Counted from the first letter of the stretch, positions 1 through 7,623 are shown. The stretch: DNA of 7,623 nt from Deltaproteobacteria bacterium (GCA_016183065.1 JACPFF010000021.1:3535-11157); one strand, 5' to 3'. Program-made: numbers and translations. The notes: generated from the letters alone by a model not told the origin.

Positions 1-300
1 ATTGATCCGCACGACAACGGTTTTGCCCGTCTCCATGTGTGTCACTGTGACCGTCGTACCAAACGGGAGGGTCCGATGGGCGGCCGTCATGGCGGTGGCA
101 TTGAACCGTTCCCCGCTCGCCGTCCGCCGACCCTGAAAGCGCCCCCCGTACCACGAGGCCCAACCTTTTTGCGTGAAAGACTTCTCCGCCGCCCGGATGG
201 TGTCGGCGCGCTTTCCGCCGAACTGTTGCGCACAGGCCGTGAACACCAGCCCGCAGGCGCAGAGCATCAGGTATCGCCGGGCGTATTGGCATCGTGTCAT
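1..300 (-). CDS. rlpA: RlpA-family septal ring lytic transglycosylase / lipoprotein, N-terminal 100 residues (runs off left edge)
   Basis: Reading the minus strand from the ATG at 300-298 gives 100 codons without a stop up to base 1. The start of the protein is basic, then hydrophobic, and ends in F-T-A-C at residues 20-23, a near-lipobox that suggests an outer-membrane lipoprotein with Cys23 as the acylated residue. Residues 46-100 match the start of the RlpA double-psi beta-barrel: [19 protein letters not shown], then F-N, then [11 protein letters not shown] and GKTVVVRIN. The catalytic Asp that normally follows RIN lies just outside the window. Family members cleave peptidoglycan glycan strands or bind denuded glycans at the septum. 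A GAGGA ribosome-binding site sits about five bases before the ATG, at roughly 306-310 on the complement. The gene follows the aminotransferase gene after 100 bp, so it may share its transcript or use its own promoter. Family assignment is firm; whether it is enzymatic cannot be judged from this fragment. Confidence 0.88.
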
Positions 301-400: not shown

Positions 401-1270
401 TCATCCCGGCGATCCCTTCGCTTGCACCTGGAATTGCACTAATTGTTGATACGCCTCCATGAGCTGGTGTGTCACGGGGCCGGGACGACGACGCACGAGA
501 CCGCGCACCTCCCGGATCGGGAGGATCTCGGTGGTGGTGCCAGTGAGAAAGAGTTCGTCGGCACGGCGGAGATCGGCGGGATGCAGGCGTTGCTCGACGA
601 CCGGGAGACCGAGCGATTGTGCGAGGAACAGCACCAAATACCGGGTGACGCCGGGCAACACGCCGGTGGCAAGTGGGGGTGTGATGACGCGACCACGGTG
701 CACGACAAAGAGATTGGTGAATGTCCCCTCCACGATCTCGTCGCGTGAGGTCATGAAGAGGCCCTCATCGGCATGTGCGGCAGCGACTTCATTGCGCGCG
801 AGGACCTTGGAGAGATAGCTGGTCGATTTGATCGTCCCGATCGATGGGGGATCGGCATGGACGTCTTGCACAAGGATGACGCAGGCCCCGCGGCGATAGA
901 GGGCCGAGGTGCGCCGCGGGAGCGGGCGGAGAAAGATCGTGATCATCGAGCGACCGCGCCGCGGACGCCGGATCGCTGTGGTGCCGACCTGGCTCGCGGT
1001 CACCCGCAGGGCGACATTGCGGGCGTGGTTTTCGCGCAAGACCGCCAGGAGTTGTGCGCGGAATGCCGTGAGAGAAGAGCGAAACGGGATCTGCAAGGCC
1101 GCGCAGTTGTCACGCAGTCTGGCATGGTGCAAGTCGACAAATGCCGGCGTTCCATTGTACGCGCGGAGTGTTTCAAACGCCCCTGCACCGTAGAGATACG
1201 CGCGGTCGAAAATCGGGATGCCGGCTTTGTCCGCAGGATAGAGGCGGCCGTTAATAGAGACTTTGTTCAT
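401..1270 (-). CDS. Fold-type IV PLP aminotransferase (PabC-like aminodeoxychorismate lyase / BCAT / D-amino-acid aminotransferase group)
   Basis: This 289-residue protein has the normal length of class IV aminotransferases. It begins with the standard N-terminal strand (NKVSINGRLYP) and the FDRAYLYGAGAFETLR block at residues 21-36. The PLP-binding lysine is K148 in TIKSTSYLSKVLARNE. The cofactor-N1 glutamate is E181 in EGTFTN, followed by TPPLATGVLPGVTR (197-210) and the phosphate-binding TGTTTE (243-248). All core cofactor residues are present, so it should be active. The family uses PLP to transaminate branched-chain or D-amino acids, or to eliminate pyruvate from aminodeoxychorismate in folate synthesis. 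The preceding gene is PabB-like, which favours a PabC assignment by context, but that neighbour lacks its catalytic residues, so the substrate is open. The start overlaps the end of the PabB-like gene by 20 bp and no good Shine-Dalgarno is visible, which points to translational coupling. Confidence 0.85.
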   Translation of the reverse strand: MNKVSINGRLYPADKAGIPIFDRAYLYGAGAFETLRAYNGTPAFVDLHHARLRDNCAALQIPFRSSLTAFRAQLLAVLRENHARNVALRVTASQVGTTAIRRPRRGRSMITIFLRPLPRRTSALYRRGACVILVQDVHADPPSIGTIKSTSYLSKVLARNEVAAAHADEGLFMTSRDEIVEGTFTNLFVVHRGRVITPPLATGVLPGVTRYLVLFLAQSLGLPVVEQRLHPADLRRADELFLTGTTTEILPIREVRGLVRRRPGPVTHQLMEAYQQLVQFQVQAKGSPG

Positions 1271-2654
1271 GGATCGTCGTAATCGGGGTGCTGTGGAGCC
1301 GCGAGAAAAAGTGCGTCACGCGCCCGTTGGTTTGTTCCAGGGTTTCCTCGAAGGGCGTACGGGCATCGAGCCAACTCGCGGCGTGAACGTACCCGAGCCC
1401 CTCATGCATGGTGAGTAAACGGACGCAGAGGTTGAACTGGGCCCTGGCATTCGGCGCCCAATAGCCCATGGCGCCGGTGTAAGCATGGCGCGGAAAGGGT
1501 TCATGATGCGCGAGCAACTGCAAGGCGCCGGGTTTTGGATAACCGGTCATGGAGAGGCCGGGGACGAGTCGCGCCAGGGCGTCGAGGATCGTGAGCGGCG
1601 ATTGCAATTGCAGTCGCAGGTTGCAGGCCAGATGCGCGGCCTGCCGATCGGTCTCCACTTGGGGGATGTCAAGGGTGACACGCCCACACGCGAGTGGGGC
1701 AAATTCCTCCTGCAACCGATGGAGTGTCCCCGTGGCCTCGGTGCTGTGCGCCATATCATCCAGGACATCGGGTGCATGGTGCGGGTGGTGATAAAAACGA
1801 TGCGCCAACACCGGCTTGGCCATCAGCTCCCGGCCTTGCAGCGAGAGAAAGCAGGTCGGTGAGGTGGAGGAGAGTTGATACTCGCCGAGATTGAGAAAGG
1901 CGCTGTGCGGCGTGGGATTGTGCTCGCGCAGCCGGGCGTGGACTGCCCACGGTTCTTCCTGCATCAGGCCGACATACCGTTGCGCGAGGTTCAGTTTTTG
2001 CGCGAGGCCCTGCCACAGGTGATGTTGGAGCGTCTGCGCAATCTCGCGGTACCGACGGAGCGGACTCACCGGCGCCAGATCGTCCGGCTCCAATTCGCGC
2101 TCGAGATAGGGCGGACTGGTGACCTGCGATGGTTCGCTCATGAGCGCCAGGAGCTGCTCGGCGCGCTCCTGCGCCAGGGCCTGGCGCGGTGCCATAGCCT
2201 CGTCGAGGCCGAGCGAGGCTATGTAACAGGTCCGCTCCACATGATCAAAGACGGCGACGGTGTCGAAGAGCCCAAACCAGGCATCAGGCAGCATGGTCCC
2301 CTGATGGGCGCGATCGATTCGCTGCGCCTTGGCGCCCCACTCAAAGGAGACATAGCCGACGAGGCCGCCATAAAACGGGAGATAGTGGTCCTCCGGCAGG
2401 GACGACAGGCAATCGGCGAAGTGGCGCAGGGCCTCGATCGGTTGATCGATCTGAATGTGCGGGGCCTCATGACCGCGACGGCGCGTGACAAAGCCGTCGA
2501 CGGAGGAGAACGTGGCGACCGGGGCAAGACCGAGGAACGTGTGTCGTGGTCCGGCGTCGAGGCAAAAACTGTGCGGGTGCGATCCAATGCGGGCAAGGGC
2601 CAGCTCCACGCGGAACCCTGCGGGGAGATCGAGCAGATACGGCATATGGCCCAT
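1251..2654 (-). CDS. Chorismate-binding (PabB/TrpE-like) protein with a degenerate active site
   Basis: The frame runs from a possible TTG at 2690 (479 codons) to the stop at 1251. I prefer the ATG at 2654 (467 residues), or the ATG at 2645, because PabB-type homology starts at PYLLDLPAGF. Residue numbers here use the TTG start. Family landmarks are present in order: YGGLVGYVSFEW (107-118), KLNLAQRY (232-239), NPTPHSAFLNLG (258-269), MTGYPKPGAL (381-390), YTGAMGYW (404-411), FNLCVR (419-424) and FEETLEQ (447-453). The catalytic core is not. SPERF reads SPTCF (277-281), PIKGT reads PVLAH (293-297), and the VDLxRND block has no recognisable counterpart. In E. coli PabB the lost residues correspond to Glu258 and Lys274, which are 16 apart; here T279 and L295 are also 16 apart, so the alignment is in register. 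An uninterrupted full-length frame argues for a retained non-catalytic or altered role rather than a decaying gene. It lies directly after the lyase-like gene and overlaps the aminotransferase gene by 20 bp. Confidence 0.8.
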   Translation of the reverse strand: MGHMPYLLDLPAGFRVELALARIGSHPHSFCLDAGPRHTFLGLAPVATFSSVDGFVTRRRGHEAPHIQIDQPIEALRHFADCLSSLPEDHYLPFYGGLVGYVSFEWGAKAQRIDRAHQGTMLPDAWFGLFDTVAVFDHVERTCYIASLGLDEAMAPRQALAQERAEQLLALMSEPSQVTSPPYLERELEPDDLAPVSPLRRYREIAQTLQHHLWQGLAQKLNLAQRYVGLMQEEPWAVHARLREHNPTPHSAFLNLGEYQLSSTSPTCFLSLQGRELMAKPVLAHRFYHHPHHAPDVLDDMAHSTEATGTLHRLQEEFAPLACGRVTLDIPQVETDRQAAHLACNLRLQLQSPLTILDALARLVPGLSMTGYPKPGALQLLAHHEPFPRHAYTGAMGYWAPNARAQFNLCVRLLTMHEGLGYVHAASWLDARTPFEETLEQTNGRVTHFFSRLHSTPITTIHEQSLY

Positions 2655-2690
2655 GGCAGGTATCGGATCACACTGCCGGGACGCCGTCAA

Positions 2691-3734
2691 TCAGCAATAT
2701 GTCCGTGTCACCGGGGGAACGCCTTGCAGGAGGTCGGCCGTGTCGATCCCGTGTTCATCCACAATCGTGATCGGGACCTGCGGCATGCAGCGACGAATCT
2801 CCCCAACCAGCTGTTGATAGATCTGCGTGCGCACCTGACGCAGATACCGAAAGCAGCCATTCACCGGGACCAGTTCGCCAAAAAAGATGCGGGATGCGGG
2901 GAAACGGGAGGCCACCTTGACAGGAAGACCGCGGGGATAATGGAAGCAGGAGAGTTCGATGCGCGAGAGGAGTTTCACGGGGAGCGATTGCGCCACGGTC
3001 TCAAGGAGGCATCGATAGTCGGCTGCCCAGTCCGGATATTGCACGATCGGATCAATGACGATCCCGATCGGATAGCCGAGCTCAGCCAGCTGGGTCAGCG
3101 CCGTGCAGCGATCGGCGAGCGAGGGCGAGCCGCGTTCTTCGTCCGCAATGATGCGCTCCGTGGTGACCGTCATCAAAATGGTGGTGCGTCCGTGATGGGG
3201 GATTTTTTTCAGCTCTGTCGGTGTGACGGCGCGCGTTTTGAATTCGAGGGAGGCATTGGGTGTCCAGGCAAAAAAAGGAATGAGGAGTTCCGCAAGATGG
3301 AGGGAGGGCTCCATGGCGAGCGGATCGCCCAGGCATCCGCACCGAAGTCGAAATTGTTGCCCCGGTTGCGCGGCGCACCGTCGTCCCAGATCTGCGAGGG
3401 CCTCCTCGATATTGACATGAATCGTCAAAAAAGGACGCCGTGCAATAATCACCGGGAGCGGGGAGTAACTGCAATCATACGGGGCGTTCATGACAAAATC
3501 GGCCTCAATGGTCGTGGTACCCCCATCGTGCTGCATGGTGTGGTACCATCGTTTGGTCGATTGCGTCATCAACCACTGCTGTTTGGCGCGGAGAAAATCC
3601 TCCGGGAGTTGCATGCTGTCGAGATCGGTGATCAGTTCGGTGTGGACATCGGGGAGTGCGGCGAGAATACGCTGTGTGGTCGGCAACCCGCGCACCTGTG
3701 CGTCAATATAGAGAATTTCCGGTTTCGTCTGCAT
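2691..3734 (-). CDS. Spore photoproduct lyase (SPL)-like protein with a broken radical-SAM cysteine motif
   Basis: The 347-residue protein has the length and layout of the SPL family, radical-SAM enzymes that repair UV-induced thymine dimers. Matches include ILYIDAQVRGLPTTQRIL (7-24), the strand-loop before TIHVNIEEAL (104-113), LEFKTRAV (163-170), and TERIIADEERGSPSLADR (192-209) leading into GYPIGIVIDPIVQYPDWAADY (220-240). The last block is very typical of the family. The [4Fe-4S] motif expected as GC-x3-C-x-YCYL reads NAPYDCSYSPL at 83-93, so the first and third cluster cysteines are replaced by A84 and S91 and only C88 remains. C134 in CLGD falls where B. subtilis-type SPL has its hydrogen-donor cysteine (CTSD); that alignment is by eye. 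Without the cluster the protein should not cleave SAM, but it may still bind DNA or act structurally. It begins 77 bp after the ParB-like gene; the gap holds a small 6-bp hairpin (3781-3797) with no T-run. GAGG stands only one base from the ATG, an odd spacing. Confidence 0.78.
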   Translation of the reverse strand: MQTKPEILYIDAQVRGLPTTQRILAALPDVHTELITDLDSMQLPEDFLRAKQQWLMTQSTKRWYHTMQHDGGTTTIEADFVMNAPYDCSYSPLPVIIARRPFLTIHVNIEEALADLGRRCAAQPGQQFRLRCGCLGDPLAMEPSLHLAELLIPFFAWTPNASLEFKTRAVTPTELKKIPHHGRTTILMTVTTERIIADEERGSPSLADRCTALTQLAELGYPIGIVIDPIVQYPDWAADYRCLLETVAQSLPVKLLSRIELSCFHYPRGLPVKVASRFPASRIFFGELVPVNGCFRYLRQVRTQIYQQLVGEIRRCMPQVPITIVDEHGIDTADLLQGVPPVTRTYC

Positions 3735-3811
3735 GCCTCGTGACTGCTATCGCTGCCTCGGAGGGGTGTCAATCGTTCCCGTCTTCGCGGGGAAGACACG
3801 GTGCTTGCGGA

Positions 3812-4786
3812 TTAGATGGAGTTATACCAATCGAAGATCTTGTGCCACGCCTGCCGTTCAAAGGCCTTCTGCAGATGGCTGACGATCGTCTCGAGCTCTT
3901 CCGGGCCCCGAATCTGGCATTCCAGTTTCAGTTTATTATCCTCAAAATAGGGATCGGCGGTAATCTTGGCCATGTTCGGGAGTTGCAATTCTTGCAACAG
4001 GCCGGCAAATTGTTGCTGGCGCCGCGCCAACGTCGGGAGACGCACGCCACGTAGGGTCTGGCGGAGCGCGGCCATTTTGGCGGTGGGGGCCACGCCTGGA
4101 TCGGCGACCACGGAGAGGAGTTGATACCGCTGCAGGACCTCCTCGACGGTCATGGCGTCGCGCGCCGAGATCTCGCGGATCATGGATAAGAGTTCGTTGA
4201 GCTTGGCCGTGGTGGCCCGCAATGGCCGCAGGACGCTCAAGAGCGCCTCCTGGGTCGTCGGGCTGAATTCGGCAATCCGCGCCGCCGACGAGAGAGCGTA
4301 TTGGTGATCGACGACGAGTTCCTTCATCGGTCCGGAACATTGATGGAGCGAGAGGAGTTGATGGAGGACTTTATAGCTCGGCTCTTCGCCCATCATCGGC
4401 AGGTATCGTTTGACCAATTCATCTTCCGCTGTGCTGTAGACATACGCCAATTTGTGGAGCGTGTTGGACTTCTCGACAATACTGAGCTGACGGGTTGCCA
4501 GATTGTCGTGAAGATTGTAGAGGAATGCCTGCAGAACGGAGAGATCCGTGTGTTCATAGACCAGTGCCGGGATCGTTTGCCGCGCCAGTTTCTGTGAGGC
4601 AAGGACGCGTCGATATCCGGTGACGATCTGATAGGTCCCATCGACGGTGTGACGGACGAGGATCGGTTGGACAATGCCGATCGTTTTCATCGAGGAGACG
4701 AGTGCGTCGAGGTTCCGCGAGAAGGTCATGCGAAAACTATCATCGGCAATGTTGAGAGCACTCATCGGGAGGAACTGCAGGAGCAT
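3812..4786 (-). CDS. ParB/Spo0J-like CTPase-fold DNA-binding protein
   Basis: This 324-residue protein carries a ParB N-terminal domain at about residues 8-80: LPMSALNIADDSFR, then IGIVQPILVRHTVDGTYQIV (36-55), then the box II motif GYRRVLAS (57-64) in place of the common GERRxxAA. After it comes N-x-H-x-N with LSIVEK (91-106), which corresponds to the segment linking to the KorB/Spo0J helix-turn-helix domain. A helical, probably DNA-binding region spans about 120-175. The remainder (about 180-324) is helical and not recognised, and lacks the usual ParB dimerisation tail that I could identify. ParB proteins bind centromere-like sites and switch as CTP clamps in chromosome or plasmid partition. 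No parA lies beside it here, and the downstream genes are metabolic or repair-like, so it may be a regulator or a loader for the SPL-like protein rather than a partition factor; that is inference. No Shine-Dalgarno precedes the ATG, in keeping with a possible leaderless transcript. Confidence 0.82.
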   Translation of the reverse strand: MLLQFLPMSALNIADDSFRMTFSRNLDALVSSMKTIGIVQPILVRHTVDGTYQIVTGYRRVLASQKLARQTIPALVYEHTDLSVLQAFLYNLHDNLATRQLSIVEKSNTLHKLAYVYSTAEDELVKRYLPMMGEEPSYKVLHQLLSLHQCSGPMKELVVDHQYALSSAARIAEFSPTTQEALLSVLRPLRATTAKLNELLSMIREISARDAMTVEEVLQRYQLLSVVADPGVAPTAKMAALRQTLRGVRLPTLARRQQQFAGLLQELQLPNMAKITADPYFEDNKLKLECQIRGPEELETIVSHLQKAFERQAWHKIFDWYNSI

Positions 4787-4795
4787 AGGGTGCGG

Positions 4796-4824
4796 CTTAT
4801 GACAAAAAAGGGTGGGTGGTGCAA
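4796..4824 (-). promoter_or_regulatory. Possible minus-strand promoter of the ParB-like gene, giving a near-leaderless mRNA
   Basis: On the minus strand TTGCAC (complement of 4819-4824) is followed after exactly 17 bases by CATAAG (complement of 4796-4801). These match the sigma70 consensus at 3/6 and 4/6 positions. Only nine bases separate the -10-like box from the ATG of the ParB-like gene, so a transcript starting about seven bases downstream would begin almost on the start codon. That would explain the missing ribosome-binding site. The match is weak and short motifs like this arise by chance. Confidence 0.3.
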
Positions 4825-4850
4825 CAAGAAAGGTCAGGGCAAGGGAGACT

Positions 4851-6098
4851 ATGCCAACACAACAGCAACGAACCGCCTATGATGAGGCGATGGTCTACAT
4901 GCGGACCGCGGCGCAACGATTGGCCATGCCGCCGGAGTATCAGCAGCTGATCGCCAATACCTATCGGGAACTCCGCGTTCAGATCGCCATTCGTCGCGAC
5001 GATGGGTCCTTATTTGAGACCTTTGGCTACCGCGTGCAGCATAACGGGGCCCGTGGGCCGTATAAGGGCGGGATTCGGTATCACCCTGCGGTAAATATCG
5101 ATGAAATCCGGGCCTTGGCGAGTCTCATGACGTGGAAAAACGCGCTCGTCGATATCCCTTTCGGTGGGGCCAAGGGGGGGATTACGGTGGACACCCACCA
5201 ACTCTCCAAGCGGGAGCTGCAAAGTCTTACCCGGGCCTTTATGCGGAAGATCGACATGGCCCTGGGACCACATCGGGACATCCCCGCGCCGGACATGTAT
5301 ACCAATGCGGAAGTCATGGGCTGGATGATGGATGAATACGGCCGCCGCCATGGCCACACGCCCGCGGTGGTGACCGGGAAGCCGCTTGATCTCGGCGGTT
5401 CGCTTGGGCGGACCGAAGCGACCGGGCGCGGCGTCAGTTTTGTCACGCAGTGGGCCTCGGCCGATTACGGCGTCAAACTGCGCGGTGGCACGGTGGTGAT
5501 TCAGGGATTCGGGAATGTCGGTTCCTATGCCGCCGAGTTTTTGCAGCAGGGAGGGGCGCTCATTATTGCGGTCTCGGATGAGCGCGGCGGGGTCTATAAC
5601 GCCGAGGGGCTCGACATTCCGAAATTGCGCCAACATCATCAGGCGCACGGTACGGTTGTCGGGTTTGCCGGGGGGACGCCGGTCGAGGGGGAGAAGCTCC
5701 TCCTGATTCCCTGCGATATCCTGATGCCGGCGGCCTTGGGGGACGTCATTACGGAGGCAAACGTCAAGAAACTCGACACCCACATGGTCATTGAGGCGGC
5801 CAATCATCCCGTTACGCCCGCCGCCGCGGCAATCTTGTGGCAGCGCGATATCCGGGTCATTCCGGACATCTTGGCGAATGCCGGCGGGGTCATCGTCTCC
5901 TATTTCGAATGGACACAAAATCTGCAGCAATTCTATTGGAAAGAGCATGACGTGAATAATCGCCTCGGGGAAAAATTGGAGACCGCGTATCGGGCCATTC
6001 ACGAGATTGCCGCGCGCGAAGAATGTTCGCTACGCGAGGCTGCCTACATGATCGCCCTCCAGCGTGTGTATGATGCCGTGCGCCTGCGGGGGATTTAG
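4851..6098 (+). CDS. gdhA: Glutamate dehydrogenase (Glu/Leu/Phe/Val dehydrogenase family)
   Basis: The protein interconverts glutamate and 2-oxoglutarate plus ammonia with NAD(P) in the cytoplasm, linking nitrogen assimilation to the TCA cycle. With the ATG at 4851 it has 415 residues, typical of hexameric bacterial and archaeal enzymes of about 420. Visible motifs are FGYRVQHNGARGPYKGGIRYH (58-78, substrate-binding K72), the catalytic lysine K108 in IPFGGAKGG, the catalytic Asp D148 in PAPDMYTN, GGSLGRTEATGRG (182-194), the Rossmann motif GFGNVG (219-224) and the C-terminal LANAGGVIVSYFEW block (341-354). One small oddity is EAANHP at 315-320, where family members usually have a G, A or M in place of the His. 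The start is supported by AAGGGAG just upstream, although its spacing is short; an upstream in-frame ATG at 4812 lacks support. The last codon lies one base before the tadA GTG, so the two genes are probably cotranscribed. The Glu versus Leu/Phe specificity is inferred from overall resemblance. Confidence 0.93.
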   Translation: MPTQQQRTAYDEAMVYMRTAAQRLAMPPEYQQLIANTYRELRVQIAIRRDDGSLFETFGYRVQHNGARGPYKGGIRYHPAVNIDEIRALASLMTWKNALVDIPFGGAKGGITVDTHQLSKRELQSLTRAFMRKIDMALGPHRDIPAPDMYTNAEVMGWMMDEYGRRHGHTPAVVTGKPLDLGGSLGRTEATGRGVSFVTQWASADYGVKLRGGTVVIQGFGNVGSYAAEFLQQGGALIIAVSDERGGVYNAEGLDIPKLRQHHQAHGTVVGFAGGTPVEGEKLLLIPCDILMPAALGDVITEANVKKLDTHMVIEAANHPVTPAAAAILWQRDIRVIPDILANAGGVIVSYFEWTQNLQQFYWKEHDVNNRLGEKLETAYRAIHEIAAREECSLREAAYMIALQRVYDAVRLRGI

Positions 6099-6099
6099 C

Positions 6100-6552
6100 G
6101 TGTCAGCGGCTGGGATATGGATGCGTGCGGCATTGTGCGAGGCCGAGCAGGCGGCGGCCATGGGCGAGGTGCCGATTGGTGCGGTCGCAGTGGTGGGCGA
6201 TGCCATCATTGCGCGGGCGCATAATGTGCGTGAGGCCACGCACAATCCGTTGGGTCATGCCGAGATTTTGCTCATTGAACAGGTCAGTCGCACGCGTCAG
6301 GCGTGGCGGTTGGATGATGTCACCGTGGTCGTGACGTGTGAGCCATGCCTCATGTGCGTCGGGGCCATGTTACAGGCGCGGATTCCGCGAGTGATCTACG
6401 GTTGTGCCGATCCCAAGGCCGGAGCGTGCGGGTCGCTCTATACCGCACACAATGACCCCCGCCTGAACCACCGGATCGATGCCGTTTCTGGCGTGTCGGC
6501 CGACGAGTGCGGTGCGTTGTTGTCGGTGTTTTTTCGGGCCAGGCGCGGGTAG
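6100..6552 (+). CDS. tadA: tRNA adenosine(34) deaminase TadA
   Basis: TadA deaminates A34 of tRNA-Arg(ACG) to inosine so that one tRNA reads three arginine codons. The 150-residue product has the usual length. It shows the WMRAALCEAEQAAAMGEVPIG N-terminal helix region, the zinc and proton-shuttle motif HAE (in GHAEILLIE) and the second zinc motif PCLMC in CEPCLMCVGAMLQARI, followed by IYGCADPKAGACGSLY. I chose the GTG at 6100 because family proteins begin several residues before the WMR motif and because GGGGGAT precedes it at a fair distance. The in-frame ATG at 6121 would remove part of the conserved first helix region. An upstream ATG at 6064 lies inside the dehydrogenase gene and adds unrelated residues. 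It follows the dehydrogenase gene after one base and precedes tRNA-Ser, a tadA/tRNA-Ser neighbourhood seen in many bacteria. Confidence 0.95.
   Translation: MSAAGIWMRAALCEAEQAAAMGEVPIGAVAVVGDAIIARAHNVREATHNPLGHAEILLIEQVSRTRQAWRLDDVTVVVTCEPCLMCVGAMLQARIPRVIYGCADPKAGACGSLYTAHNDPRLNHRIDAVSGVSADECGALLSVFFRARRG

Positions 6553-6617: not shown

Positions 6618-6624
<7 letters not shown>
6596..6624 (+). promoter_or_regulatory. Possible sigma70-type promoter of tRNA-Ser
   Basis: TTGAGC (6596-6601) and TATGCG (6619-6624) are separated by 17 bases and lie 20 bases before the mature tRNA start. Both boxes match the consensus poorly (4/6 and 3/6). The position suits a tRNA promoter, but readthrough from tadA would serve as well. 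Confidence 0.3.

Positions 6625-7623
<999 letters not shown>

Follow-up and report, generated by a model that had tools for sequence, protein, structure and literature searches.

Three described systems lie closest to the locus that is the subject of this paper. The first is the family of CTP-dependent DNA clamps that includes ParB, Spo0J and Noc. The second is splAB of Bacillus, in which SplA, encoded upstream, accompanies the radical-SAM enzyme SplB; the cysteine that donates the H atom is C141 in the B. subtilis SPL and C74 in that of C. acetobutylicum (PMC5368176). The third is the gene pair pabB–pabC. We found no published account of a ParB–SPL pairing in the literature that we searched, with most subscription journals outside our reach, so the novelty of the pairing is unproven; an ICTV profile of the Bicaudaviridae (PMC12662068) lists, for one archaeal virus, a "DNA repair photolyase" along with a ParB-like protein and a glycosyltransferase.

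Here, we ask a narrow question: why would a bacterium keep, directly beside a ParB-like gene, two full-length relatives of enzymes that have both lost their catalytic motifs? Our preferred answer, to which we give a probability of about one-half, is that two ancestral gene modules lie side by side, that the ParB-like protein serves as a hub, and that the SPL-like protein—and perhaps the PabB-like protein—may have been kept as a non-enzymatic subunit.

The Locus

The window (that is, the whole stretch of 7,623 nucleotides that was analysed, G000:C2:3535-11157) comes from a 1.97-Mb, 89%-complete genome, G000; G-numbers denote genomes and f-numbers denote families, and in our set, the window's class and its phylum both comprise the same 46 genomes. 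ORFs and Pfam matches agree with the preliminary description in placing four packed genes on the minus strand: a ParB-like protein (3812–4786; 324 aa; ParB_N, 3e-16), an SPL-like radical-SAM pseudoenzyme (2691–3734; 347 aa; SPL, 1e-22), a PabB-like pseudoenzyme (1251–2690; 479 aa; Chorismate_bind, 5e-32, and Anth_synt_I_N, 4e-18) and a class IV PLP aminotransferase (401–1270; 289 aa; Aminotran_4, 7e-53). The ParB and SPL genes are 77 nt apart, PabB and the aminotransferase overlap by 20 nt, and SPL and PabB are separated by 0 or 36 nt according to the PabB start chosen, which is probably the ATG at 2654, the methionine being invariant in homologues. A Pfam search of the gene cluster found no parA. 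On the plus strand, a Glu/Leu/Phe/Val dehydrogenase gene (4812–6098) runs divergently from ParB and lies outside the conserved pair described below, and tadA (6064–6552) is syntenic with ParB–SPL, PabB or the aminotransferase across much of the phylum. A homologue of the dehydrogenase also occurs near the PabB pseudoenzyme in f9 genomes, divergent from it in two (L085-L087).

A 622-aa plus-strand ORF (1875–3743) lying over SPL and PabB was set aside as probably an antisense shadow of codon bias, all homology being on the minus strand. Assembly artefact or frameshift was discounted, given the full-length frames and the parallel losses in other genera. At the edges of the window, a minus-strand ORF (6618–7622) runs off the contig end; it looks recombinase-like by eye, has no significant family match, and overlaps a tRNA-Ser(GGA) on the other strand (6644–6729), as at an integration site. 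A peptide like PNGGWFSPxPxQDNGGxxAPVVLRR is common to L032:103-609 and window positions 6618–7559, which suggests a repeated element on the contig, and a run of unknown bases just left of the window (L032, ~3484–3534) cuts an RlpA-like gene (window 1–300, minus strand).

A ParB-Like Protein with an SPL Neighbour

The ParB-like protein has a ParB_N CTPase-type domain, in which the GxxR motif of the clamps is present as GYRR and which matches ParB and Noc structures, followed by a putative HTH region; its C-terminal domain (about residues 193–324) is specific to the family. The putative HTH region is conserved, without a Pfam match in the window copy and with an HTH_ParB match in a relative (G143). 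The window protein is 51–61% identical to orthologues from 11 other genera of the phylum, and in its lineage, it is retained under strong constraint. It is a paralogue, found in 12 of the 46 genomes of the phylum (f1, f2, f3, f9 and f14); a separate match of canonical ParB type is present in the window's own genome (G000:C8) and in most genomes. The AF2 model is poor (pLDDT 57), the C-terminal domain having no confident structure, and the structural matches that VIA-align returned, generic helical repeats only, were rejected with it. A ParB tree that included distant rows had long branches, was unusable and was replaced by one of 12 close orthologues.

An SPL gene adjoins ParB in nine of these 12 genomes (the window's, G003, G004, G005, G011, G017, G027, G037 and G043); more distant ParB relatives adjoin SPL in f10 and f16 (divergent), and in f12, f15 and G258, it is the C-terminal domain alone that adjoins SPL. 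Stand-alone small proteins of this C-terminal type lie next to SPL at L037:7629-8135, L164:12927-13367 and L041:7139-7543; a Pfam search with one of them gave no match.

How far does the pairing extend? In a sample of 385 genomes, 36 from beyond the phylum carry the ParB family (35 called at E <= 1e-35; the other, G258, has just the C-terminal domain). In 24 of the 36, ParB is followed immediately, on its own strand, by an SPL-family gene, with CxxxCxxC intact in every one; in G243, a 156-aa ORF stands between the two. Gaps, which are minimal because they use the start codon closest to the ParB stop, fall between -22 and +40 nt at 18 of 22 measured loci. In the remaining 12 carriers, no SPL match was found within the stretch fetched around ParB; the contig of one, G100, stops just past ParB, and in G050, SPL sits on a different contig. 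The gap is ~270 nt in G046 and 3 nt in G059, and as each of these is the sole member of its own phylum in the set, the pair spans at least three phyla. ParB–SPL is thus a widespread gene pair across many bacterial families. Neither Bacillus splAB nor an SPL-family gene of Deinococcus, examined for comparison, has a ParB neighbour. A scan of viral_contigs with the SPL alignment returned no relative, and single SPL queries of phages and of plasmids returned only matches of 23–27% identity.

In 14 of the 36 outside-phylum genomes, the gene just ahead of ParB, in the same orientation, encodes a GT2 glycosyltransferase; in ten of these, SPL follows ParB. This GT2 (~280 aa) has a conserved CEDYDLW...GGHxDQLSxKYWGMDRFR (L263, L264, L273, L276, L280, L282, L043, L173 and others). 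In G278 and G140 (L267, L268), a DUF4921-matching protein (match tested in G140) takes the place of SPL downstream of the ParB relative.

Repeated Loss of the SPL Active Site

Among intact ParB-linked SPLs, CxxxCxxC is common to all, and CC.Y, GTGE..DSLALD, KTK, RY and LCME are present in most. Alignments with relatives bear out the earlier claim that the SPL-like and PabB-like proteins of the window have lost their catalytic motifs: in its SPL, CxxxCxxC has become AxxxCxxS, GTGE has become RCGC, KTK has become KTR, and the conserved CCxY and LCME are also missing. The cysteine motif is degenerate in four genomes (A..C..S in the window, S..C..D in G027, T..C..C in G017 and N..L..C in G043), and all four copies read KTR where intact ones end in K (KTK, RTK or KSK). 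The tree of ParB orthologues separates the window's order (f1–f3, of which f3 is intact) from f9/f14 with support of 98/96, which implies at least two losses; the count is taken from the ParB tree because the window SPL, which evolves fast, could not be placed firmly in a tree of SPLs. The cluster motif was thus lost at least twice within the phylum, along with SAM-contact residues. No SPL was found in three other ParB carriers (G002, G022 and G032).

The fold has been kept: the model of the window SPL (pLDDT 71) aligns to SPL structures with TM of 0.78–0.80, and the protein scores 80.6 bits on Pfam SPL against a gathering score of 27. It falls under the NCBIfam equivalog cut-offs of TIGR04070 (100 bits against 400) and TIGR03886 (40 against 438), and four intact relatives, at 120–160 bits, are likewise far under the cut-off of TIGR04070.

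The PabB-Like Protein

The window PabB retains the Anth_synt_I_N plus Chorismate_bind architecture with a chorismate domain stripped of catalytic residues: SPE has become SPT, PIKGT has become PVLAH, PGGxxTGAPK has become PGLSMTGYPK, and the E(L/H)xMLxDLxRND segment is gone. Such pseudoenzymes occur in nine of the 12 ParB-carrying genomes, in nine genera (the window's, G002, G004, G005, G011, G022, G027, G032 and G037); none was found in ParB-carrying G003, G017 and G043. With the intact PabB of f5, they form one clade (95/95), outside which fall the functional PabBs of G000, G001, G002, G017 and G043. That of G000, on C15, is intact (PIKGT, lysine type) and lies behind a PabA/TrpG-like gene, the latter named by sequence.

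The idea that motif loss might be confined to this strain fails for both proteins, with SPL degenerate in four genera through at least two events and PabB in nine.

Constraint or Decay?

Are these proteins being used, or are they merely on the way out? The main rival to our reading, which we consider a live if not a likely possibility, holds that this clade no longer had any use for radical-SAM chemistry, that SPL and PabB lie idle and are being lost as selection on them relaxes, and that ParB is kept for some other reason. Several observations fit it, and of these, the missing or shortened copies and the faster change count against our own reading. The copies form a graded series from intact through motif-lost to truncated or absent; the PabB-like protein of G002 is a 200-aa N-terminal domain only, and in G001, a member of the window's family, we found no ParB, SPL or pseudo-PabB, the whole trio being absent. 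Both pseudoenzymes also change faster in amino acid sequence than their intact counterparts, by up to ~2x (pN of 0.28–0.46 in pseudoenzyme pairs and 0.19–0.24 in intact SPL and PabB pairs).

Against decay stand the frames themselves, which are open in every pseudoenzyme and full-length across several genera at 30–45% identity, with pN well below pS (0.64–0.87). Synonymous divergence is mostly saturated, and the sole unsaturated pair, the PabBs of G027 and G032, gives dN of 0.52 and dS of 1.46. Moreover, the f9 PabB pseudoenzymes keep specific residues (the conserved RxxYGGAFG and TGxP) without the catalytic ones. With pN well below pS, yet above that of intact relatives, the SPL-like and PabB-like pseudoenzymes look constrained but relaxed.

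Two Separable Modules and a Proposed Four-Part Complex

The preliminary description had imagined a single integrated complex on DNA, with the ParB-like protein as clamp, the SPL-like protein as scaffold, the PabB-like protein as ligand sensor and the aminotransferase as fourth member. We now think this improbable; that some complex is loaded onto DNA is a plausible idea. In its favour are the tight four-gene cluster of the window, the order ParB–PabB(truncated)–aminotransferase, without SPL, in G002, and the finding that PabB pseudoenzymes are seen only in ParB-carrying genomes, with none among the best matches that we read from 22 ParB-lacking members of the phylum. The idea is opposed by the position of the PabB pseudoenzyme in f3 and f9, where it lies on contigs other than that of ParB–SPL (a position that tells against our own reading as well), and by the absence of any PabB-like gene next to ParB at the loci outside the phylum.

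It is opposed also by the aminotransferase. As the preliminary description had supposed, this protein is of a working type: it belongs to Aminotran_4 and keeps its Schiff-base lysine (IKSTSYL) and EG...N. The BCAT, ADCL and DAAT models all match it below cut-off. No other class IV aminotransferase was found in G000 (an incomplete assembly, at 89%), and its homologues adjoin PabB in much of the phylum; from these two facts, it is probably PabC (4-amino-4-deoxychorismate lyase), with a housekeeping role. In G001, where the trio is missing, its immediate neighbour is tadA, and we have set the enzyme aside as a part of any ParB system.

Conservation of the cluster, then, was half right: the ParB–SPL pair reaches far beyond the strain, and the four-gene unit, in its exact order, was seen only in the window. 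Comparison of gene neighbourhoods found the motif losses in several genera and, instead of one system, ParB–SPL and PabB–aminotransferase as separable modules, with intact SPL and intact PabB as the ancestral states. An SPL–PabB–aminotransferase cluster with intact motifs in f11/f12 shows that the neighbourhood is older than the losses.

A last alternative, that tadA, ParB–SPL and pabB–pabC are neighbours by descent with unrelated jobs and that the role of the PabB pseudoenzyme has no connection with ParB, is very doubtful: PabB–aminotransferase and tadA adjacencies are indeed seen without ParB, and the ParB-carrying families may be one clade, in which case PabB catalysis could have been lost just once, coinciding with ParB by descent, but every genome with a PabB pseudoenzyme carries the ParB-like protein's family.

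Discussion

We return to our preferred reading of two ancestral modules with a ParB hub. Module A would be the ParB-like protein and the SPL-like radical-SAM enzyme. In the intact pair, the N-terminal CTPase/HTH part of ParB may bind or slide on DNA, while the family-specific C-terminal domain would recruit the enzyme, as is suggested by the lineages in which that domain alone remains beside SPL. The intact enzyme would act on DNA, in lesion or base chemistry, a substrate to which the kinship of ParB and SPL points. In the window's lineage, the SPL-like partner, without iron–sulphur and SAM sites, may now act purely as a non-catalytic subunit. Module B would be an old pabB–pabC operon: with an intact PabB elsewhere in the genome, the local PabB lost catalysis, its N-terminal domain, the best kept part, possibly becoming a second ParB-associated subunit (the weakest step of the mechanism), and the aminotransferase would continue as PabC.

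More tentatively, there may be an undescribed, widespread system in which a ParB clamp brings an SPL-like enzyme, often together with GT2, to DNA, there to carry out repair or base modification, and in which, within this phylum, the enzyme (repeatedly) and PabB became non-catalytic subunits, which would give the complex a structural or regulatory role over and above catalysis. The pair joins CTP-dependent DNA clamps with SPL-type radical-SAM enzymes and makes the role of this SPL subfamily directly testable, and lineages that kept the protein after losing the cluster, as happened repeatedly, offer natural separation-of-function variants.

How does all of this compare with what has been described? 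Like ParB, Spo0J and Noc, the window protein has ParB_N with a GxxR motif, and a putative HTH region; it differs in being a second ParB, with a C-terminal domain of its own and an SPL for a partner. The PabB-like protein resembles PabB in its full architecture (E 2e-34 to 7pi1) and stands in pabB–pabC gene order, and it differs by its lost catalytic motifs and by the intact PabB elsewhere in the genome. ParB-linked SPLs share with SplB the fold (TM ~0.8, window model) and the radical-SAM superfamily and, in intact relatives, CxxxCxxC as well; they differ in having ParB where Bacillus splB has SplA upstream. At the position of Cys141 of B. subtilis, intact ParB-linked SPLs have the Glu of GTGE, which is compatible with lyase activity, since the clostridial donor is another cysteine (C74), whereas the window copy, which lacks the cluster motif, has a Cys there (RCGC).
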